Assembly: GCA_026985075.1 (NCBI GenBank)
Contig: JALSQX010000067.1
Coordinates: 248,001 to 312,000, forward strand
Direction: 5' to 3'
DNA from: Blastocatellia bacterium
Lineage (GTDB): Bacteria; Acidobacteriota; Blastocatellia; HR10; J050
Length of the DNA: 64,000 nt
Made by a program: the position numbers and the translations under genes. The notes beneath the pieces were generated by a model that did no database searches, was not told the DNA's origin, and worked only from the letters and a program-made list of their open reading frames with translations. Positions 24,021-35,026 of this stretch are shown one piece after another; position 1 is the first letter of the stretch; every line of letters starts with the position of its first letter.

Positions 24021-24058
24021 GAAAAGCCGTTACACTTGGTACGGGTCGTTTGGACTAC

Positions 24059-24808
24059 ATGCTGACGGAGAAAGCGAAGGTCGAAACCAAGGGGTGCCCC
24101 ATCTGTCACGGCACCGGCTGGGAGTATGTCCAAGAGAGGGCCGTCCGTCGGTGCCGGTGCCGAGGCGAGGTTTCATCAACGGCAGTCGAGCGCTTACTGG
24201 ATGCGGCGCACATCCCTCCCCGCTACGCCGAGTGTGAACTGAAGAATTACATTCCCCAAGGAGAGGTGAACTCCCCGGAACTCGAATCTCAGCGCATGGC
24301 CGTGCTCATGTGTCGGCAGTTCGTCAAAGAATACCCGAATACGGATCGCGGCCTTCTGCTGATGGGACCCGTGGGGGTAGGAAAGACCCACCTGGCCGTC
24401 TCAGTACTGAAAGAACTGATCAGAACGAAAATGGCGCATTGCCTCTTTTACGACTTTCGCGATCTCCTGAAGGAAATTCAGGAGAGCTATAATCCTGAGT
24501 CTCAGCGCACGGAGTCTCGTATTCTGGAACCCGTTTACAACGTCGATGTCCTCGTCCTGGACGAACTCGGGGCGGCCAAGCCAACGGCATGGGTTCAGGA
24601 TACGATGACGCAGATCATCAATACCCGCTACAATTACAAGCGACTGACCATCTTCACGACCAATTATCTGGACACGCCAATCAGCAACGAGGAGACGCTG
24701 GCCGAACGCGTCGGAGAGCGACTGCGATCGCGACTCCACGAAATGTGTAAGACCATCCTCATCATCGGTCGCGACTATCGACGACTCTCTCAGTCGCTCA
24801 CCCCATGA
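24059..24808 (+). CDS. DnaC/DnaI/IstB-type AAA+ ATPase with N-terminal zinc ribbon
   Basis: A 249-residue helicase-loader-like ATPase. The N-terminus has a CPICHGTGW ... RRCRCRG cluster, a probable zinc ribbon of four Cys. The AAA+ core has Walker A LLLMGPVGVGKTHLAV near residue 105, Walker B VDVLVLDELGA, sensor 1 IFTTNY and the ERVGERLRSRL arginine-finger segment. No transposase is adjacent, so it is more likely the chromosomal DnaB loader than an IstB partner. ATG 24059 is used; TTG 24050 is an in-frame alternative. Confidence 0.88.
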   Translation: MLTEKAKVETKGCPICHGTGWEYVQERAVRRCRCRGEVSSTAVERLLDAAHIPPRYAECELKNYIPQGEVNSPELESQRMAVLMCRQFVKEYPNTDRGLLLMGPVGVGKTHLAVSVLKELIRTKMAHCLFYDFRDLLKEIQESYNPESQRTESRILEPVYNVDVLVLDELGAAKPTAWVQDTMTQIINTRYNYKRLTIFTTNYLDTPISNEETLAERVGERLRSRLHEMCKTILIIGRDYRRLSQSLTP

Positions 24809-24898: not shown

Positions 24899-26374
24899 TC
24901 AGCGAATGGCCATCGGCTGCGTGAAGATGTCCGATCGCCCGTTTCGCGTATCGGCCCAGAGGGGGACGATCACCCCCTGGTGTGCCGCCAGACTGGTGTA
25001 ATCGCCCATGAACGGCACCATACAGGTGAAGTTTGCGGCACGAATGAAACGGAACGCCGCCGACGGATCGAATGGTTGATCGGTGAGCTTGATGCTGGGC
25101 GCGAACGTCTCGCCGCCATCGGACGACCAGGTGACGCGGTAATCGACCAGAAAATTCTCCACCGAATCGCGCCGATCATAGTAACCGATGACGAGATCCC
25201 CGGTTGTTTGATCGACGGTGACAAACGGCATGAATTGATCTTTTCCGTTACCCGGTGCGTCATCGTTGACGCGAATGGGCTCGCTCCAGCTCATCCCGCC
25301 GTCTGTCGAGCGGCTCAACAGAATATCCACGTCGCCACTTCGTCGGTCGGCCCAAACCACATAGAGATTCCCCCGCGTTGGCCCCGCCGAACGATCGACG
25401 GCCAAGGAGGGAAGGCTCCCGCCGTGCCGCGCCAACGCGCGGAGTCGACCGAACGGATGGACGTCCGCGACGTGGATATCTGCCCCAAACGTCACTCCCC
25501 CATCCGTGGAGAGATCAACGACGATCTCTGGCCGTCGATCGCGACGAGAGTGTAACCAGATGACATATACCTCCCCCTGAGGCCCGACGCGGGGCATAGA
25601 TCCTTGAACGCCGCGATCGTCACTGATGATTTGCGGTGTGGAAAAGGTCATGCCCCGATCGGTAGATCGGGAAAAGAGAATGCGACTCCCGTCACCGATG
25701 CTCGTCCAGCTGATGTAGAGGAAATCATTGAACGGTCCACCAGTGGTATCAGCCGTGATCCAATCCTTATCTTCGAAAGCGGGATTCGATTCACCAATAT
25801 GAGCCACGACGGGGACGCCGGCTGAAAAGCGACGACCGCCATTCGTGGATCGATAGACGAAGACACCGTTGTCGCTCCGATCCGTGTTCCACATGATGGT
25901 GGAGACGTAAACGTTACCCTCACTATCCATGGTCAGGACGGGATCGCTCTGATTTTGAAACTTCACGCTGCGGCCATCTGGACTGCGGGCGAAATTTCGC
26001 ACCGGCGACTGTTGTTCCCACGTCTGTCCGCCATCGAACGAGACGTAAGGCGTGACCCGCACCGCCAACTGACTGCTGTCCATGGCCGCCGCAATGATGT
26101 GCTGTGGATCACGAGGATCAATAACCAGCGTCGTCTCCGCCGCGGGACCCGTCTGATTGACGCGAATGTTCGTGCCTTGAACGAGCGAACGCGATGGTGG
26201 GCCAGACAGCATGGTGGATAATTCCTCGGCCGTCACCACCCGACCATTGCCCATTCGGAAACGACGGGGCGAGGGATTATCTTGAGCCGTCACGCCCACG
26301 GAGGCGAAAGAGCCGAGAAAGGACAAACACAACCCAGCGATGATCACACTCGTGCCGGTGAATCGCGCGAACAT
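24899..26374 (-). CDS. Secreted BNR/Asp-box repeat protein (sialidase-like propeller)
   Basis: A 491-residue exported protein. A signal peptide is evident (SVIIAGLCLSFLGSFASVGVTAQ). Six Asp-box motifs are spread along a six-bladed propeller: SFDGGQTW, STNGGRRF, STDRGMTF, STDGGVTF, STDGGMSW and SSDGGETF. Sialidases share this fold, but the Arg triad and Tyr/Glu pair cannot be assigned, and many such proteins bind rather than cleave glycans. GAGGAGG precedes ATG 26374. It is the last of five leftward genes for secreted proteins, about 95 bases after the giant protein gene. Confidence 0.85.
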   Translation of the reverse strand: MFARFTGTSVIIAGLCLSFLGSFASVGVTAQDNPSPRRFRMGNGRVVTAEELSTMLSGPPSRSLVQGTNIRVNQTGPAAETTLVIDPRDPQHIIAAAMDSSQLAVRVTPYVSFDGGQTWEQQSPVRNFARSPDGRSVKFQNQSDPVLTMDSEGNVYVSTIMWNTDRSDNGVFVYRSTNGGRRFSAGVPVVAHIGESNPAFEDKDWITADTTGGPFNDFLYISWTSIGDGSRILFSRSTDRGMTFSTPQIISDDRGVQGSMPRVGPQGEVYVIWLHSRRDRRPEIVVDLSTDGGVTFGADIHVADVHPFGRLRALARHGGSLPSLAVDRSAGPTRGNLYVVWADRRSGDVDILLSRSTDGGMSWSEPIRVNDDAPGNGKDQFMPFVTVDQTTGDLVIGYYDRRDSVENFLVDYRVTWSSDGGETFAPSIKLTDQPFDPSAAFRFIRAANFTCMVPFMGDYTSLAAHQGVIVPLWADTRNGRSDIFTQPMAIR

Positions 26375-26470
26375 ACATCACCTCCTCGAATGAAGTTTCA
26401 ATGCCCTCATGCCACTCCGACCGCGAAGATGGGCCAAGGGCGGAACCCCTGGCCCATCCTCGGGTAACAG

Positions 26471-29400
26471 TCATCGCACAGAGACTTTGATCTTATATCT
26501 GTAATCGGGTCCTCCGTTGCCGGCGAAATCTTTGATGCGGAAGGTGAACTCGCCGCCAATGAGAACGAGATAGGTCAACAGCGAATCCGATGTGCTCCCA
26601 TCGTCGTCGTTCTCCGCCAACTGCACCACGCCCAGCGTATCGAAGAGCGTGATCACCGAATCCAGCGGAGAGGGAGGCGACAGGGTGGCAGCATCCACAT
26701 CGATGGTAATGGTCTGTAACGCGGAGGCGGACAATCGGAAATAATCCTCGTCGCCCGCCGGATCGATGGTGCCGATGATGGTCACGTCGGGCGTGATGGA
26801 ATTGGCTAACAAGGCGTTATCATTGGGCTCCGATTCGTTCACGCTGGTAATGGTGATGGCCACCGCACCAGTGTTGTTGGACTCGTCAGACTCGGTGACG
26901 GCGTTGCCCGCATCGACGATGACGCCGATGTAACGCGTGCCTTGCGTCGCCGTGGCAGGGATTTGAATTCCGGTGAGCGTGTTGATCTGCGATTCTCCGG
27001 GCAAGAGACCGGATGTCGGAGCCGTGGCCAGGAGCGGGTCGCTGGCATCAATCACAGGATCGTCGGAGAATCGGATCTCGTGAGTGGCCGGGCCCGCCGA
27101 TCCTGTGCCCTGATTGGTGATCGTGAAGGTGACGGATACCTGATCACCGGCATCAGCGCTGGTCGGCGAGACGCTGAGATTGACGACCACCAGATCAGGT
27201 TGAGCCGCGGTGATGGTGATGGGCGCGGCAGCCGTATTATTCGCCTCGTTAGACTCAGGTACGACATCGCCCGGGTCCACGATGATGCCGATGAATCGCG
27301 TTCCCGGAGGGGCGGTGGCCGGGATGGTGACATTCACGGTGAATGGCGCCGAACTTCCTGGACTCAATGTGCTCGTCCCCACGGTGGTGAGCAAGGTATC
27401 GCTGGAATCGATGACATTGTCCACCGAGAAGCGGATCTCGTGTGAACTGCTATTGGCCGTCGCCACGCCCTGATTCACGATGCTGAAGCTCACCGTCGTC
27501 GTTCCGCCCGGCGGGACGGCGGTGGGCGTCACCGTCAAACCGGTCACCACCAGATCGGCCTGGGCCGCCGTGATCGTAATCGGTGTCGAAGCCGTGTTAT
27601 TCCCTTCATCCGACTCACTGACCAGATTCGGCGTATCGGCGATAACACCGATGAACATCGAGCCCGGTGCTGTGGACGAGGGAATGCTCACCGAAATGGT
27701 GAATGGCGATGCGGCGCCCGGACCGAGCGTCGATGTTCCCACCGTGCCGAGGAGCGTATCCGCCGTCGTGATGAGGTTATCGGCGGAGAGATAAATCTGA
27801 TGCGTAGTGGAACCAGCCGTGCCATTGCCCTGATTGGCGAGCGTGAAGCTCACCGTCACGGTGTCACCCGGATTGACCGAGGTTGGATTGATACTGAGCC
27901 CAGTGACGACCAGATCGGGCAACGGAGAGGTGATGGTCAGGGAGACGGCGGCGGTGTTATTGCTCTCGTCAGATTCGGTGACAGTCCCTCCCGCATCGAC
28001 GCGAATGCCGATGAACTGCGCTCCCGGCGACGCGCTGGATGGAATGGTGACGCTCACATGGCTGAACGTTTGCGCCGCACCGGCGGGTAAATTGGGCGTT
28101 CCCACCGTGGCCAGGAGAGTATCGCTGGCATCGATGATATTATCCGTCGAGAGGCGGATCTCATGCGTCGCCGATCCGGCTGGCCCGCCACCCTGATTCG
28201 TCACCGTGAAACTGACTGAGACCGTCCCTCCCGGCGCCACCGAGCTCGGGTTCACGGTGAGGTTCATGACCACCAGATCGGCGAGCGTGCTGCCCACATT
28301 GAGAGGAGTGCTCGCCGTGTTATTCTGCTCGTTGGATTCGACAACGCTGCTCGACGAATCGGCGATCACGCCCAGGAAATGAGCGCCAGTCGCGGTACTC
28401 GATGGAATGACGACGGTGAGATTGTTGAACGGGATGGATTGTCCAGGAGAGAGCGTGGGCGTGACCACGGTGGCCAACAGGACGTCGCTACCATCGATGA
28501 CGTTATCGATGGAGAGACGCACTTCGTGAAATGTAGATCCCGCGCTCTGGGTTCCTCGATTGGCGATGGAAAAGCTCACCGAAACGGTGCCCCCAGGATT
28601 GACGGTGGTGGGCGATACCGTCAGCCCTTCGACGACCAGATCGGGACCCGGCGGCGTGAGGGTCGTCTCCACCGTTCCGCGATTCTCCGTCGCCGCTGAG
28701 AACGCCGCCTCCCACGCCCGACGAATGGTCTCCAGTTTGTCGATGTCGGCCTGATTCGCCGTCTCCCCCTGAGGGACGATGAGCACGAACGCCTGCCGGA
28801 ACCGGGTGGGCGCTCCTCCCGGCCCGGGCACCCGCTGCCCTTCGGCCTGGATGATCTGGTTGATGGAAACCGTTCGTCGCACACCATTGACCGTCACGCC
28901 GATCTCCGGAGGACTGGTTCGATCGCGACCACCGGTATTCGTGGGAGCATCGATGAAGAAGAAATCGGGCACTTCCGCGGATGACCGCAATCCCATCACA
29001 TACTGATCCAACGGGCTATAGCGAATCGTCGCCTGTTCGGAACGGAACGTGTTCCCACCCAGATCGCGCCAATCGTTCCCGCCGAGGAACGAGCCATCAG
29101 AATCGAGAAAGAAACTCCACGCCGATCGATGACGCCCGAGCAGCGCATCGCTTGGCACGCCCCCATCATCGAACCGCACGTATGCGCCCCAGCGCTGCCC
29201 CACGGCACGCGCCAGCACGCCGAGCGTGGTGAACGTCGTCCGCCCGATTCGCTCATTGACATCATCGGGGAAATCGCTCAGTCGGCTCATGACGACGACG
29301 GCCTGCAATCGACCGCCACTGCCAAATGCCGAGGTTCGATCGAAGGTGGGCAGGCCGATGCCCTGAATGGTGTTCTTCACTAACTCGGTGAAGCTCAATG

Positions 29401-30805
29401 CCTCGGGTCCAGCCAGCTTATGTGAGAACGTGCTGGAGCCAAACAGCACGAGGAAATCGAAATCGTCACCATGCGTCTGGTAGAATCGCTGAGCCACCGC
29501 CCGCGTGTCCAAGCCTCGATTGAAAAACTCAAGAATGGGCGCTGGCGAACCGAACGAAGCCGGGAGATCCCGATCGAAGTTCACCCGGAAGAACGTTCGA
29601 CTCATCCCATTGGAGAGCCCCACCAGTCCGTCTCGGGTGGCCACCGATTGATAGCTGAGGCGAATGCGCCCATCCCTGAACAGCACGAGCTGAACGGTAT
29701 TGGCGTTGGTCGTATTGAATTCGGGAAGGTTTTTCCAGGTGATGACTGCGCGACTGCTTCCCACCAGACGCACAAAGACGCCATCCGCACCCGACGTCGT
29801 GGCGGGATTGAAATCATCCCAGAGAGCCGCAATGCGCGGACTCTCCGCGATGAACTCGGCAATCGATGGCGTTCCATCGGGATCAGGAGCATCGAACGTG
29901 ACCAATCCATTGGAACTCACGAAGAGAAAATTTCGGCTCACATTGTAGAATGGGAAGAAGAACCCCAGGTTCACTTGCCTGGTGTCATCATCGCCGAGCG
30001 TCAGTCGGGTACCCAGATTGGACTCCATGGAGAAGCCGATGAAGGAGGCGTCGTAACTCCCCGCCCCGTTGGGTCGGAACTCGATCGTCCGGTTCGACAA
30101 GTCGAAGAGTTCGAGGAATGTACCATCATCGTGCAGCACGGCGATGTTGCCTTGGTCAGCATCAGGCGGCTGCGCCGACCGGCTCGGATGAAGAGTCGAC
30201 CAAGGGAGAGCCTCCGGCTTCACATCGGCCACCGGTGGCCAGTTGGCCGTCCCCCATTTATCCTCGACCATCAACCGGCCACGGTCAGCATCCAGCCACA
30301 ACCGCCGGTCGTCGCGTGGATCGAGCGTCATTCTGAAAAAGTGCCAGTTCTCGGGGAGCCGCTTCAGCTCTTGCCAATGTTCACCTTCATCCAGGCTACG
30401 ATACAGGCGATTCTCGATGAGCCCGGAGTGAACGGGCACGCTGAGCAAAGCATAAATGATCGTCGGCGCCCCAGATCGAATGACCAGAAGGGGCGGATGA
30501 GTCGGGCGCACGAAGGGTACCGGTAATCCGCGAGTCACCGATTCCCACCGACTCCCACCATCGGTTGATCTGAAAATATGGCCCACGGCAGACGCCGTGT
30601 AGATGACCTGAGGATCATCGGGACTGACCACTCGGACGCCCGTCTGGTCTCCAACCGATGATTTCCATTGTCGAGCCTGGGGAGAAGAGAATCCCCGGGA
30701 CATTCCTACACTGGCAGAGATCAACCCCACCAGGATGAACCATAGAATGATATGATGTGAGATGAACCCATGAGAGCTCGAATCTTTCGTTTGATGACTA
30801 TCCAT
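26471..30805 (-). CDS. Giant secreted composite protein with five CARDB repeats and a PPC domain
   Basis: A 1444-residue exported protein; the start at 30805 follows AAAGGAGGGGG. After an N-terminal hydrophobic segment (IILWFILVGLISASVGM) comes an Asp-box motif (STDGGSRW), then around residues 230-400 a nidogen-like beta domain (SNGLVTFDAP, IAALWDDFNP, RDGRIRLSYQ), then a ~300-residue region of unknown type (FDFLVLFGSSTFSHK, YSPLDQYVMGL). From about residue 720 to 1310 are five ~120-residue CARDB (cell-adhesion-like) repeats, each opening DLVV-x-x-L-x-(V/I)-x-P, and a final PPC pre-peptidase domain (ESEPNDNALLANSI, ENDDDGSTSD) ends the protein. A cell-surface adhesive or protease-associated role is inferred; no catalytic motif is clear. 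Confidence 0.85.
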   Translation of the reverse strand: MDSHQTKDSSSHGFISHHIILWFILVGLISASVGMSRGFSSPQARQWKSSVGDQTGVRVVSPDDPQVIYTASAVGHIFRSTDGGSRWESVTRGLPVPFVRPTHPPLLVIRSGAPTIIYALLSVPVHSGLIENRLYRSLDEGEHWQELKRLPENWHFFRMTLDPRDDRRLWLDADRGRLMVEDKWGTANWPPVADVKPEALPWSTLHPSRSAQPPDADQGNIAVLHDDGTFLELFDLSNRTIEFRPNGAGSYDASFIGFSMESNLGTRLTLGDDDTRQVNLGFFFPFYNVSRNFLFVSSNGLVTFDAPDPDGTPSIAEFIAESPRIAALWDDFNPATTSGADGVFVRLVGSSRAVITWKNLPEFNTTNANTVQLVLFRDGRIRLSYQSVATRDGLVGLSNGMSRTFFRVNFDRDLPASFGSPAPILEFFNRGLDTRAVAQRFYQTHGDDFDFLVLFGSSTFSHKLAGPEALSFTELVKNTIQGIGLPTFDRTSAFGSGGRLQAVVVMSRLSDFPDDVNERIGRTTFTTLGVLARAVGQRWGAYVRFDDGGVPSDALLGRHRSAWSFFLDSDGSFLGGNDWRDLGGNTFRSEQATIRYSPLDQYVMGLRSSAEVPDFFFIDAPTNTGGRDRTSPPEIGVTVNGVRRTVSINQIIQAEGQRVPGPGGAPTRFRQAFVLIVPQGETANQADIDKLETIRRAWEAAFSAATENRGTVETTLTPPGPDLVVEGLTVSPTTVNPGGTVSVSFSIANRGTQSAGSTFHEVRLSIDNVIDGSDVLLATVVTPTLSPGQSIPFNNLTVVIPSSTATGAHFLGVIADSSSSVVESNEQNNTASTPLNVGSTLADLVVMNLTVNPSSVAPGGTVSVSFTVTNQGGGPAGSATHEIRLSTDNIIDASDTLLATVGTPNLPAGAAQTFSHVSVTIPSSASPGAQFIGIRVDAGGTVTESDESNNTAAVSLTITSPLPDLVVTGLSINPTSVNPGDTVTVSFTLANQGNGTAGSTTHQIYLSADNLITTADTLLGTVGTSTLGPGAASPFTISVSIPSSTAPGSMFIGVIADTPNLVSESDEGNNTASTPITITAAQADLVVTGLTVTPTAVPPGGTTTVSFSIVNQGVATANSSSHEIRFSVDNVIDSSDTLLTTVGTSTLSPGSSAPFTVNVTIPATAPPGTRFIGIIVDPGDVVPESNEANNTAAAPITITAAQPDLVVVNLSVSPTSADAGDQVSVTFTITNQGTGSAGPATHEIRFSDDPVIDASDPLLATAPTSGLLPGESQINTLTGIQIPATATQGTRYIGVIVDAGNAVTESDESNNTGAVAITITSVNESEPNDNALLANSITPDVTIIGTIDPAGDEDYFRLSASALQTITIDVDAATLSPPSPLDSVITLFDTLGVVQLAENDDDGSTSDSLLTYLVLIGGEFTFRIKDFAGNGGPDYRYKIKVSVR

Positions 30806-30839
30806 AACCCCCTCCTTTCGCATGTTCGGGCCCCATCGC

Positions 30840-32831
30840 TCACTGCCCGAGGGCTGCCGATGAGGCGACGGCTAAGAGGTAATTGGCGCGTTGGCGACCA
30901 GGATGGCGATCGCTCAGACTCACGCCAATGTAATACGTGCCGGCAGGAAGTTCGATCGGCCCAATGGTCCTGGAAATCCCCACTGGTGAACCTTGAGCGA
31001 CCACGCGGGGGGTGGGGCCCTCGACGACGAAGAGGACGAGATCGAGACCCGTGTTCATTTGCTCGGGGGCCAGGTTCATCTGAACCAACGCCGAGTCGTC
31101 CAATGAGAAAGCGAACACATCCTCGACGCGTTCTTGTCGACCGTTGAGTGGAAGAGAAATGACCCCGTCATCGCCCGGGCCAACGTCGCCGAGCACGGCG
31201 CCCGGAAGAGGAAGCGGCTGCGCTTGTTCCACTGTTTCATTGGGTTCTCGTTCGTCAATCAGCACATCGGGGAAGAATTGGAATGAGAACGTGAGATCGC
31301 CGCCACCGGGCAGATTCCCCGCTCGGGTCACTTCGATGAGAACCTCCTCGCCAGCGAGAGTGCCAAAGACGATCTGCGAGTGAATGTCCTGGCCGATGTC
31401 GTCGTTACAGGCGATCTCAAAGAGATCCCCGCACTGGCCTGTATAGGCGCTCAATACGGTGTCATACGTGCTGCCCAGAGTTTGAATGGTTACAACCCCT
31501 GAGCTTTCCGGAAGGAAGCGATACCAGACGCTGGCCGCATCGATGCTCGTCGTGCAGGTATGCACGGGATCGTCATCCTCGGTGCCTGCCGAACGCGCGT
31601 CTAACTGGTCGACGAACGTCGGACCGGTGATCCGGGTAGCTTGTGCGCAGAGATCGTTTTCGGGGAATTGGCCGTTGAGAATGATATCCGCCCCCTCAAC
31701 GATCGCTCCCGCCTCCACCCGCACCAGAGCGATGCGTCGAGGTCCGTCATCATTGGATTCCATCGCCCCACTATAAAACTCGCGCCCACCGACCAGGGGT
31801 GGTGGAGGATCGAGTGGCCCGAGACCGGATCCTCCGGTGAAGGCGGGATGGATGGGCTCAACCTCGATAGTATAACGACCCGGCGGCAACCCGACGATGC
31901 GATAGACGCCGCGCAGGCGGGGATCGAACACGCCGTTGCCGCCACGAGGCCGCCGATTGCCGATGAACCGGTCTCCCGAGATCGCCGAGACGGCCAACGG
32001 GATTCCCGAGATTCGCCGGGCCACGACGTTGGCCCCCTGAAAGCCGGCCACACCATTGGGCATGAGCACGCGTCCCTGAATCGTACCGGTGGATGCGGCA
32101 AATCGAGGATCGGGATAGATCGACGAGAGCGCGGCCACATCATCGGCATGCAGTCGAGCTTGATGGCGGCTGATGAGAAGAGGAAACATGGTCGGGATTC
32201 CCCGATCATTAATGGGCAACCCATCCAACGCTTCCCTCAGATTCACCTGCGTATGGTCGAGCCCGATGAAATGGCCGAACTCGTGGACGACCGTAGCGCG
32301 AAACATATCCAGCGGAATGCGCTGGCCAACGAACAAGCCATTGAACACAGCCCATCCTTGCCGGAATTCGCCTCGCGTCACCCCGGGCGGTCGCAACGTG
32401 GGCGAACCGAATCCCACGATATCCCGACTGGCGCCCACACCCACCAGAGCCTCAATGATGGATCCATCGTGATCGAACACAATGGGATTGACGCCTCGCC
32501 GGATACGACTGAGGACATCCATCACATTGGCTCCCGTGACATCCACGTCTAATTGGCCGCGTTGTTCGAATGCGATCGTCGCCGTATCGACCTCTTGCCA
32601 GGTGCGAAACGCATCGGCGACCAGCTCGACGGCCGCCGCATTGTCGAGAATGCCCAGCGGACCGCGATCCGGCGTATAGGTCACAGGATTCCGCGGCCAG
32701 CGGAAGGGTTGACCACGACTATTGATGAACAGTGGCCCTCCCGCTCTGACCGGGCTCAGGAGGAGAACGCCGACCAGCACGATGAGTCCCCCCACAGTCG
32801 GCGCTGACAACCCCCAGCATCGCTCCATCAT
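30840..32831 (-). CDS. Secreted matrixin-type metalloprotease with two PPC domains
   Basis: About 663 residues. A signal peptide (GGLIVLVGVLLLSPVRAGG) precedes a metzincin catalytic domain with zinc site HEFGHFIGLDH at residues 183-193 and a Met-turn TMFPLL downstream. A carboxypeptidase-regulatory-like beta sandwich (TIQGRVLMPNGVAGFQGANV) follows, and then two pre-peptidase C-terminal (PPC) domains (NDLCAQATRI, CNDDIGQDIHS; EPNETVEQAQ, AGTYYIGVSLSD). The start is taken at 32831 (MMERC); longer GTG start at 32888 has no better ribosome-binding site. Paralogous to the next gene upstream. Probable extracellular zinc peptidase. Confidence 0.88.
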   Translation of the reverse strand: MMERCWGLSAPTVGGLIVLVGVLLLSPVRAGGPLFINSRGQPFRWPRNPVTYTPDRGPLGILDNAAAVELVADAFRTWQEVDTATIAFEQRGQLDVDVTGANVMDVLSRIRRGVNPIVFDHDGSIIEALVGVGASRDIVGFGSPTLRPPGVTRGEFRQGWAVFNGLFVGQRIPLDMFRATVVHEFGHFIGLDHTQVNLREALDGLPINDRGIPTMFPLLISRHQARLHADDVAALSSIYPDPRFAASTGTIQGRVLMPNGVAGFQGANVVARRISGIPLAVSAISGDRFIGNRRPRGGNGVFDPRLRGVYRIVGLPPGRYTIEVEPIHPAFTGGSGLGPLDPPPPLVGGREFYSGAMESNDDGPRRIALVRVEAGAIVEGADIILNGQFPENDLCAQATRITGPTFVDQLDARSAGTEDDDPVHTCTTSIDAASVWYRFLPESSGVVTIQTLGSTYDTVLSAYTGQCGDLFEIACNDDIGQDIHSQIVFGTLAGEEVLIEVTRAGNLPGGGDLTFSFQFFPDVLIDEREPNETVEQAQPLPLPGAVLGDVGPGDDGVISLPLNGRQERVEDVFAFSLDDSALVQMNLAPEQMNTGLDLVLFVVEGPTPRVVAQGSPVGISRTIGPIELPAGTYYIGVSLSDRHPGRQRANYLLAVASSAALGQ

Positions 32832-32884
32832 ACTCGCTCGGCTCCGCGCAAACAGTGTCCGTCTCGTCCATCCCCTTCCGGATT

Positions 32885-34153
32885 TCACCGCTCGGTGGGA
32901 GAGAACGATAGTCGATCGGGTGAAAAAGCTGATCGCCAGTTGAATATCATCTTCTTCACGATACGGCGAGCACCACCACGAACGGTAGATAAGCGTCGAT
33001 CGACGTTGAGGATGATATCTACATCCTCGATGCGGTCACCGGGCATGAGCTCGATCTCCGCTCGATGATCGGGATCATCGGTGCTGGATTCCTCCTCGGC
33101 ACTGTAAAATTCCGGCGGCCCGGGCAACTCAGCCGGTGGATCTAATGGTCCCACGCTGGAGCCCCCGGTGAAATCGAATCGGATCTGTTCGATCTCCACC
33201 GTGTAACGTCCGGGCGGCAATCCGGGAAGCTCATAAAACCCGAGCAACTCCGGATCATCGGAACCGAAGTCCGGACCATTGCGCGTGCCCGTATGAAGGA
33301 ATCCCGATACCGATGATACAGCCACCAGACGGGGGTCATCGACGCTTCGAGCGATGACATTGGCCCCCTGGAACCCCGTTCCATCGGGCAACAGGATGTG
33401 GCCCGAGATCGTCCCGCGCTCGCGGAATTCCCGGAAATCGGGATAGAGGGCTGAGACGGCCACCTCATCATCGAGATGGAGCACCTCGGCACCCTCGACG
33501 ATGAAGGGGAACATGGTGGGCACCTGATCATCGTTCCGCGAGGTGGAATCAAATGCGGCGGCGGCATTCAATTGAGTATGATCGAGCCCGATATAATGCC
33601 CGAACTCATGAACGGCCGTCCCCAAGAGATCACTGGGCGGAAATCGCCCATTGAGCACGGCTCGCGCTTGCAAGTACACACCATCGGTCCGGAACACCGT
33701 TGGACCGGCGAATCCCAACACCGTACGACTCGCCCCCGTTCCCAGCAACGCATCGATGATGCGTCCATTGGTATCGAAGATGATGGGACTCGTGCACTCT
33801 CGGCCCGACTGGCACTCGCCGATGACCTGATTGAGAAAAGCGAGCACGTTCCGCTCGGTCACATCAAAACCGAGTCGCCCATCCTGGCGAAAGCGAACGC
33901 GAGACAGCGTGACATCCTCCCAGACCTGGAACGCTCGCGCAACCAGATTGATCGCTTGTTCATTGGTCAAAGCGCCCAATCGGCCCCGATCCGGCGTATA
34001 GGGAATGCGGCTACGCCGCCACACGAAAGGGACGCCCTGAGTATTCACGAGCAAAGGACCGCCCGCCTCGACATCGGCAACACCGGCTATGAATGAATAG
34101 ACGCCGCTGGCCACCAGGAGAACGATGACTCCCATTCGCCGCCACCATCTCAT
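32885..34153 (-). CDS. Secreted matrixin-type metalloprotease, shorter paralogue
   Basis: A 422-residue exported metzincin. ATG 34153 is chosen because GAGGAGG lies just upstream and a signal peptide follows (MGVIVLLVASGVYSFIAG). Zinc-binding HEFGHYIGLDH is at residues 182-192; TMFPFI is the Met-turn. The same GGPLL(V/I)N, YTPDRG(R/P)LG, and regulatory beta-sandwich (GTISGHILLPDGTGFQGANV) as in the next gene show a tandem duplication, but this copy ends after the sandwich and lacks the PPC domains. It has an extra Cys pair (GECQSGREC). Probably cleaves extracellular protein. Confidence 0.88.
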   Translation of the reverse strand: MRWWRRMGVIVLLVASGVYSFIAGVADVEAGGPLLVNTQGVPFVWRRSRIPYTPDRGRLGALTNEQAINLVARAFQVWEDVTLSRVRFRQDGRLGFDVTERNVLAFLNQVIGECQSGRECTSPIIFDTNGRIIDALLGTGASRTVLGFAGPTVFRTDGVYLQARAVLNGRFPPSDLLGTAVHEFGHYIGLDHTQLNAAAAFDSTSRNDDQVPTMFPFIVEGAEVLHLDDEVAVSALYPDFREFRERGTISGHILLPDGTGFQGANVIARSVDDPRLVAVSSVSGFLHTGTRNGPDFGSDDPELLGFYELPGLPPGRYTVEIEQIRFDFTGGSSVGPLDPPAELPGPPEFYSAEEESSTDDPDHRAEIELMPGDRIEDVDIILNVDRRLSTVRGGARRIVKKMIFNWRSAFSPDRLSFSPTER

Positions 34154-34245
34154 AGAGAATCCTCCTCGCTCGGACCGCTCTTCGATCAACGGGGGGACCT
34201 TGAACGTCCCACGATGTTGCCCGTTGAGGAAAGCACCTTGGCCAT

Positions 34246-34887
34246 TCATCGCGTCACCAGCCTCCGAATGACGGCGCTGAAGGCTCGATAGCTCATCGTC
34301 GCGAGCTCGTCCGGTTCGCCCGAATCAGTCAGTGATGACCGCACCTCTTCACCGAGTCCCTCCAGCAATCGCGCCCGGGGAACGACCAGAATGACTCGAC
34401 GTTCGCCCGTCCGGGGATCCAGTCGCACTGAGAGTTTGCCTTGAATGCCACCCACCGGACTGGTGAACCCGTATCGGCTCTCCGGATAAAGGAAGAGGAT
34501 GATGCGCTCGCCTCGATGATAGCTCGGCAATTCCGGCACGCGCGTGAGATCCTGACCACCGAATTGCATGAAGGTGAACTGACGGCGGTCAGGAGAAAGT
34601 CCTTTGAATGACTCCTCGACCTCCACGGTCACGTAGGTCACCGCCACATGGGGATACTCGGGATGACTGCCCTGGCGAACGCTCACCACGCGACCGGATA
34701 CGATGATGCCCGCCCGCTCGACCATGTCTCGGAGCGAGACGGGCAGAACTTGCGCCGAAATCGCGAGAGTCGTCGTGATCATGAGGATGGATGCGAAAAA
34801 TCCGGTCTTCCATGAAACCGGCCAGCGAAGGCATCTGGCGAACGCGGCGCGCGGCGGCGATCCACTCCTCTCAGGCGATCTTATCAT
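34246..34887 (-). CDS. Exported protein of the protease cluster, unknown function
   Basis: A 213-residue protein with an N-terminal hydrophobic segment (TGFFASILMITTTLAISAQ) that may be a signal peptide or anchor. The mature region opens DMVERAGIIVSGRVVSVRQG and contains TYVTVEVEESFKGL, a small beta-barrel pattern like those in proteins that precede secreted metalloproteases in other bacteria; then ERIILFLYPESRYGFTSPVGGIQGKL. AGGAGGAG sits before ATG 34887. It is the first gene of the five-gene secreted cluster. Function unknown; a chaperone or inhibitor for the proteases is speculation. Confidence 0.75.
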   Translation of the reverse strand: MIRSPERSGSPPRAAFARCLRWPVSWKTGFFASILMITTTLAISAQVLPVSLRDMVERAGIIVSGRVVSVRQGSHPEYPHVAVTYVTVEVEESFKGLSPDRRQFTFMQFGGQDLTRVPELPSYHRGERIILFLYPESRYGFTSPVGGIQGKLSVRLDPRTGERRVILVVPRARLLEGLGEEVRSSLTDSGEPDELATMSYRAFSAVIRRLVTR

Positions 34888-34996
34888 CGTGCTCCTCCTG
34901 TGAATGAACGCTTCAACTCACGGGGTTGCCTCATGCTGGTCGAATGGGCATCCATAAGGCTGGATCAGGAATATGGGCTCACCGGGCTGGAATCAT

Positions 34997-35026
34997 AGGG
35001 TAGGCCACGTCATCTGACGTTGTCAA
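34997..35026 (-). promoter_or_regulatory. Promoter of the secreted-protein cluster with a palindrome in the spacer
   Basis: Minus strand TTGACA (35026-35021), 18-base spacer, weak -10 TACCCT (35002-34997). The spacer contains ACGTCA-TC-TGACGT (35007-35020), a 14-base inverted repeat ending next to the -35, where a repressor would block RNA polymerase. About 100 bases of leader follow before 34887. Confidence 0.5.

Follow-up and report, generated by a model that had tools for sequence, protein, structure and literature searches.

TIMPs and other proteins with an NTR domain are regarded as animal modules. In a TIMP the first residue of the mature protein chelates the zinc of the protease, and the animal matrix metalloproteinases (MMPs) carry a prodomain with a PRCGxPD cysteine switch, which is not required for membership of the M10 family. 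Among bacterial matrixins, karilysin has a short propeptide. In the AprA/AprI system and other serralysin inhibitors a secreted metzincin is paired with a cognate periplasmic inhibitor, the N-terminus of which enters the active site; the fold of AprI is a different one (eight-stranded, lipocalin-like), and its protease is a serralysin. The KLIKK protease genes of Tannerella forsythia each have a small lipoprotein gene directly in front of them (PMC4404884), and inhibition of the co-expressed protease by these potempins has been stated from then-unpublished data (PMC7296668). In Listeria the gene of the metzincin Mtz is followed by the gene of the TIMP-like lipoprotein Tim, which is cleaved by Mtz, and AprA/AprI-type inhibitors are mentioned in the same paper (PMC8235301). 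Here we analysed a cluster of five leftward genes (genes 1 to 5) in a 64,000 nucleotide stretch of the genome of a Blastocatellia bacterium (contig JALSQX010000067.1; the window). The conserved unit of this cluster consists of gene 1, which encodes an exported protein with a predicted NTR/TIMP fold, and gene 2, which encodes a matrixin.

Gene 1 (34246..34887, minus strand; 213 amino acids, mature domain at 34249-34752) did not match any family of Pfam, NCBIfam or PHROGs, and none of 43 members of its family had a Pfam match. Comparison with the PDB sequences gave no known family; the weak matches were to azurin (E 0.04 and worse). The mature domain (site AISA|QVLPV) was modelled with AlphaFold2 from an alignment with nine relatives, yielding a pLDDT of 84 and a pTM of 0.82. 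With this model Foldseek found the NtA domain of agrin first (E 2.4e-4), followed by TIMP-2 (E 4.4e-3), TIMP-1 and the NTR domain of PCOLCE. The best match of VIA-align was 3ma2_C, the TIMP-1 of the complex with MT1-MMP (Z 9.3, root mean square deviation 2.9, 114 residues aligned, 7% identity); NtA (Z 9.2), 3cki_B, which is the N-TIMP-3 of the TACE complex (Z 8.8), and complement C345C (8.5 and below) came next. The model shares the NTR/OB fold of the TIMPs (PF00965), with Z values of 8.1-9.3 for N-TIMP-1, -2 and -3 and a Foldseek prob of 1.0. The top matches are all members of a single superfamily, NTR, with TIMPs solved together with metalloproteases prominent among them. Z values of 7-8 are typical for models without a clear match, and those of gene 1 are moderately higher; the fold assignment is consequently based on the consistency of the match list as well as on Z. 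On this modelling gene 1 is predicted to fold like the NTR/TIMP proteins. No potempin structure was among the 50 matches listed in the fold searches, which is no evidence of a difference.

The predicted mature N-terminus may also fall where it does in TIMPs. A crude cleavage score placed signal cleavage at profile position 0/-1 in 73 of 117 sequences of the gene-1 family. This position corresponds to TIMP residue 1-2 by superposition (model residue 1 on TIMP residue 2) and also by hhalign (residue 10 on TIMP residue 11), the best hhalign alignment agreeing in register with the structural one. The mature proteins often begin with T-[TS]-V-[VI]. In the proteins in which the NTR domain is fused to a matrixin the commonest start is T-T-V-V-x-P, which recalls C-T-C-V-P of TIMP-1 but without the cysteines. 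As far as the models go, the N-terminal register is suggestive of that of TIMPs.

The link between gene 1 and the protease was assessed in several sets of genomes. A search of 98 relatives with gene 1 by itself found matches in 29 genomes, and one with gene 2 in 30 genomes. The two matches were adjacent in G001, G002, G004-G009, G012, G016, G033 and G040, and also in G049 (twice), G054, G056 and G076. The breadth outside the Acidobacteriota was derived from loci found by gene 2 in an independent genome collection; all nine of these loci (from Acidobacteriota, Anammoxibacter, KSB1, Woeseiaceae, Aminicenantes and one unclassified bacterium) have a gene-1 homologue immediately upstream. Carriers of gene 1 belong to the Acidobacteriota, Planctomycetota, Gammaproteobacteria, KSB1 and Aminicenantes, and a profile made from gene 1 alone detected 97 carriers among 199 sampled Acidobacteriota genomes.

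All fetched loci contained 122 distinct gene-1 domains. In 79 cases the domain is encoded immediately upstream of a metzincin gene with which it shares the strand, and in 37 it forms the N-terminal part of a fusion with a metzincin; a sequence end truncates 4 more, and the last 2 have no such link. Linkage was thus found in 116 of 118 evaluable cases. An exact 4-bp overlap of stop and start is present in 29 of the 79 upstream cases, a few of which have overlapping long open frames that make the exact gap uncertain. One sample was chosen with the gene-1 profile so that the loci were not picked by the protease. Seventy open reading frames were read from the hits of this profile (the 30 best and 40 down the list; a few repeat earlier loci): 65 were linked, 2 were unlinked, and 3 were truncated where the sequence read ended. 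By comparison, 8 of the 693 other open reading frames of these loci contain the metzincin motif. The zinc motif is complete in 109 of 115 partners of gene 1, and the distance matrices of the two proteins are correlated in the separate pairs (r = 0.80; maximum after shuffling 0.15). In a further locus (L187:2062-6001) the NTR-like domain opens a long frame that continues with propeller-like repeats and ends with the stretch read.

Gene 2 (32885..34249, minus strand) encodes a matrixin (M10-like) with a CarboxypepD_reg-like domain, and gene 3 (30840..32888, minus strand) a second matrixin with a PPC-like C-terminus. Both pass the curated cut-off of PF00413 (24 bits) with 30 and 26.5 bits, respectively, and both have the HExxHxxGxxH motif and the Met-turn of this family. 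In gene 2 the zinc-binding motif is HEFGHYIGLDH (33578..33610, minus strand), followed by the Met-turn VPTMFPF; in gene 3, which is 48% identical to gene 2, it is HEFGHFIGLDH. The two tandem matrixins that had been proposed from the sequence are thereby confirmed. The profile of gene 2 matches the catalytic chains of human MMPs (best E 5.9e-7). An AlphaFold2 model of gene 2 was too poor to be used (pLDDT 47), and the assignment to the family was made by sequence. No more than about 15 residues separate the predicted mature N-terminus of gene 2 from the start of its catalytic domain, with neither a prodomain nor a cysteine switch in front of this domain, and a PRCG-type cysteine switch (PRCGxPD) was found in none of 85 stand-alone matrixin partners. 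In the fused proteins it is the NTR domain that occupies the position of the prodomain, N-terminal to the matrixin.

Several features distinguish the pair from the bacterial systems named above. Like the potempin/KLIKK pairs (karilysin and others), it combines a secreted metalloprotease with a small exported protein whose gene directly precedes that of the protease, as in 79 of the 122 cases here. The potempins, however, are lipoproteins of one oral pathogen without a sequence in common among themselves, whereas the gene-1 family is one recognisable family in several phyla, forms natural fusions and has no lipobox (0 of 129 sequences); gene 2 ends in ...SFSPTER and lacks the KLIKK tail. Karilysin-type matrixins have the catalytic domain family, the zinc motif and the Met-turn in common with genes 2 and 3. 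Gene 2 and the other partners differ from karilysin in having neither prodomain nor cysteine switch, and the inhibitor of karilysin is of another kind than gene 1 (PMC7296668). As in Listeria, a metzincin and a TIMP-like exported protein are encoded by adjacent genes. Tim, on the other hand, is a lipoprotein of Gram-positives encoded after mtz at phage-associated loci, while here the NTR gene comes first, is chromosomal, lacks a lipobox and occurs in phyla of the Gram-negative type; this distinction is drawn by description. AprA/AprI is likewise a bacterial secreted metzincin with a cognate partner, but the fold of the partner and the type of protease differ. The nearest parallels to the pair are the potempin/KLIKK and the Tim/Mtz systems, and new here is a widespread, lipobox-free family that forms fusions.

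We propose with moderate confidence that genes 1 and 2 encode a cognate pair in which gene 1 is a periplasmic or extracellular TIMP-like inhibitor or latency factor of the matrixin. With its gene upstream, the NTR protein would be translated and exported first, in step with the matrixin, and would dock on the nascent or exported catalytic domain. The matrixin would be held latent while it is exported and in the vicinity of the cell that makes it. The NTR protein would substitute for the absent cysteine-switch prodomain, in trans where it is a separate protein and in cis where it is fused N-terminally, and its free mature N-terminus could enter the active-site cleft like a wedge, as in TIMP or AprI. 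Latency would end when the NTR protein is released or degraded outside the cell; the fusion proteins would be zymogens that become active once the linker is cleaved. A role in latency is preferred mainly because the NTR domain stands at the prodomain position in the fusions and because the matrixins have no cysteine switch.

A number of observations weigh against this proposal. The NTR fold is also found in proteins that are not inhibitors (agrin NtA, C3/C5, PCOLCE), and the gene-1 model matches NtA as well as it does TIMP. Gene 1 is not matched by the TIMP sequence profile (PF00965), and the hhalign comparison with TIMP is not significant (Prob 2-4%, P 0.01-0.02; control with gene 2, Prob 0.1); the comparison used human TIMP sequences, of which that of TIMP-1 was confirmed against the PDB. 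Mature gene 1 contains no cysteine and thus has neither the Cys1-X-Cys3 clamp nor the conserved disulfides of the TIMPs, and among 122 relatives 81 have no cysteine, 38 have one, and 3 have two. The crude score from which the mature N-terminus was taken puts the cut in the window protein 3 residues upstream of AISA|QVLPV. The correlation between the distance matrices of gene 1 and its partner is confounded by the species phylogeny, which accounts for part of it. Finally, the two unlinked members of the family (L166:2983-3648 and L168:2026-2841) carry a C-terminal hydrophobic anchor and have no protease nearby; they are possibly free-standing inhibitors or have another role. Since the cysteine signature was tested and is absent, gene 1 should not be filed as a TIMP. 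What it has in common with N-TIMP is the predicted fold, the matrixin partner and perhaps the position of the predicted mature N-terminus, and it is set apart from the animal proteins by being encoded beside or fused to its own protease, the inhibition of which is predicted.

In the strongest rival explanation gene 1 does not inhibit the active site but serves the matrixin as a dedicated chaperone for folding or export. The obligate pairing, the order of translation and the N-terminal place in the fusions would fit an intramolecular chaperone equally well, and the matrixins have no prodomain that could assist their folding. The fold that was matched, however, is that of the TIMPs, and no NTR protein is known to act as a protease foldase. 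We regard a foldase as unlikely, although many prodomains do both, so that the two ideas overlap and a folding function may coexist with inhibition. As a second alternative, gene 1 could be a targeting or anchoring module that takes the protease to the surface or to a substrate, as NtA does for agrin. NtA is the top match of Foldseek, the NTR domain of the fusions would then serve as an accessory binding domain, and the two unlinked members have a membrane anchor. But a separate exported protein without an anchor, a lipobox or an obvious binding repeat would have to bind the protease anyway, and the PPC, CARDB and CarboxypepD-like domains already provide accessory functions, making this explanation an improbable one. 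Third, gene 1 could be a substrate that is released or activated by cleavage, for which the cleavage of Tim by Mtz is a direct precedent (PMC8235301); since the lipoprotein Tim has a conserved cleavage region at its N-terminus, whereas the gene-1 family has no lipobox and is often fused in cis to the protease, we consider this quite improbable. That the adjacency reflects an ordinary operon, the secreted proteins of which are unrelated and do not interact physically, would suit the loose, genus-restricted attachment of genes 4 and 5 but is very improbable because of the 37 distinct fused genes, next to a linkage of gene 1 of at least 96% across phyla.

If the proposed latency role is correct, the gene-1 family would comprise candidate natural metalloprotease inhibitors that are cysteine-free and possibly fused, and it would account for the control of bacterial matrixins without a prodomain, suggesting that bacteria may have a built-in protease guard of their own. 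The link to matrixins would provide an annotation rule for a large unnamed family. This family, without a name in Pfam or NCBIfam, occurs in about half of the sampled Acidobacteriota genomes and in several other phyla; together with its predicted fold and its tie to matrixins by gene order or fusion, this makes the origin of the relation between TIMPs and MMPs testable. Quite tentatively, the bacterial NTR family could be a native matrixin inhibitor and prodomain, in trans and in cis, which shares its ancestry with the animal TIMPs in a partnership older than the animals.

The original prediction was of a five-gene cluster of exported proteins behind one promoter. The five genes were confirmed as open reading frames on the minus strand (genes 4 and 5 at 26471-30823 and 24899-26374), and by inspection all five proteins have signal-peptide-like N-termini. 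The lead gene, then merely a small unknown exported protein, has gained a predicted fold and a tie to matrixins across phyla. A check of the gene order showed the pair of genes 1 and 2 to be widely kept, whereas the full order was found only in L067, a genome of the same genus; in G002, a genome of the same family, a relative of gene 5 lies before gene 1 instead. A five-gene system conserved as a unit was therefore rejected, genes 4 and 5 trailing the pair in the same genus only and both belonging to multi-copy families (in the source genome, the middle domain of gene 4 has 5 matches and gene 5 has 4). Of the suggested system for extracellular protein degradation or attachment, secreted proteolysis is supported: both matrixins have intact zinc sites, and gene 4 adds a third domain, which is zincin-like. 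A dedicated five-gene attachment system finds no support, as the families of genes 4 and 5 are dispersed and joined to the operon only in this genus.

Gene 4 has a BNR-like N-terminus, a zincin-like middle domain, five CARDB repeats (Pfam) and a PPC-like end. In an alignment of 20 relatives the zincin-like domain (28619..29518, minus strand) has a degenerate zinc motif: LARAVGQRW stands in the window where distant relatives from the Acidobacteriota have CHEQGHRW or SHEVGHCW. The sister genome has ARAVGRRW in place of ARAVGQRW, and HExxH is thus lost in this genus. Judged from these sequences the zincin of gene 4 is probably catalytically dead, that is, a pseudoprotease. The family of the middle domain, which has no name, is present in the genomes of 26 of 58 relatives. 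The C-terminal repeat of gene 3 was also found in gene 4 with the gene-3 profile. PPC or CARDB modules had been expected in three genes; by Pfam they are limited to two, gene 4 and gene 3, the PPC match of the latter remaining below the threshold (22.4 against 25.9 bits). Gene 5 encodes, as proposed, an exported BNR propeller (PF13088, 50.7 bits against a cut-off of 31.4). In genome G016 we observed 23 matches to this propeller, many of them in very long frames (1000-2073 amino acids); BNR-propeller surface proteins have thus expanded greatly in this relative.

Read as full open frames, genes 1 and 2 as well as genes 2 and 3 share 4 bp. For gene 2 a start at the ATG at 34153, located behind GAGGAGG, is more likely than the longer frame. 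For gene 4 the ATG at 30805, preceded by AAAGGAGGGG, is the likely start; with it the composite protein has the proposed 1444 amino acids (full frame 1450). Strong ribosome-binding sites had been attributed to all five genes, but no convincing Shine-Dalgarno sequence was seen for gene 3. Upstream of gene 1 a promoter-like element, TTGACA-18-TACCCT (34997..35026, minus strand), was read from the sequence. Both boxes are retained in L067 despite diverged flanks, a conservation that is promoter-like and no proof of activity, and a stricter promoter scan of the window did not have the element (35026..34997) among its listed candidates. The 96-nt gap between genes 4 and 5 (26375-26470, minus strand) contains a long, GC-rich hairpin of high stability that lacks a T-run (26420..26465, minus strand; minimum free energy -46.8 kcal/mol for the gap, z -3.47), and in L067 the equivalent place is taken by another hairpin, which differs in sequence. 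This hairpin is possibly an attenuator or an RNA-processing element. In view of the hairpin and its divergent counterpart in L067, gene 5 may be partly uncoupled from the rest of the cluster, which makes a single transcript that includes gene 5 less certain.

The cluster is flanked by glycine-cleavage genes upstream and by a tyrosyl-tRNA synthetase region on the other side. A convergent gene for a DnaC/IstB-like AAA ATPase (24050-24808, plus strand) lies just downstream of it. The nearest named relative of the window is Acidobacteria bacterium J050, the gene-2 protein of which is 85% identical.

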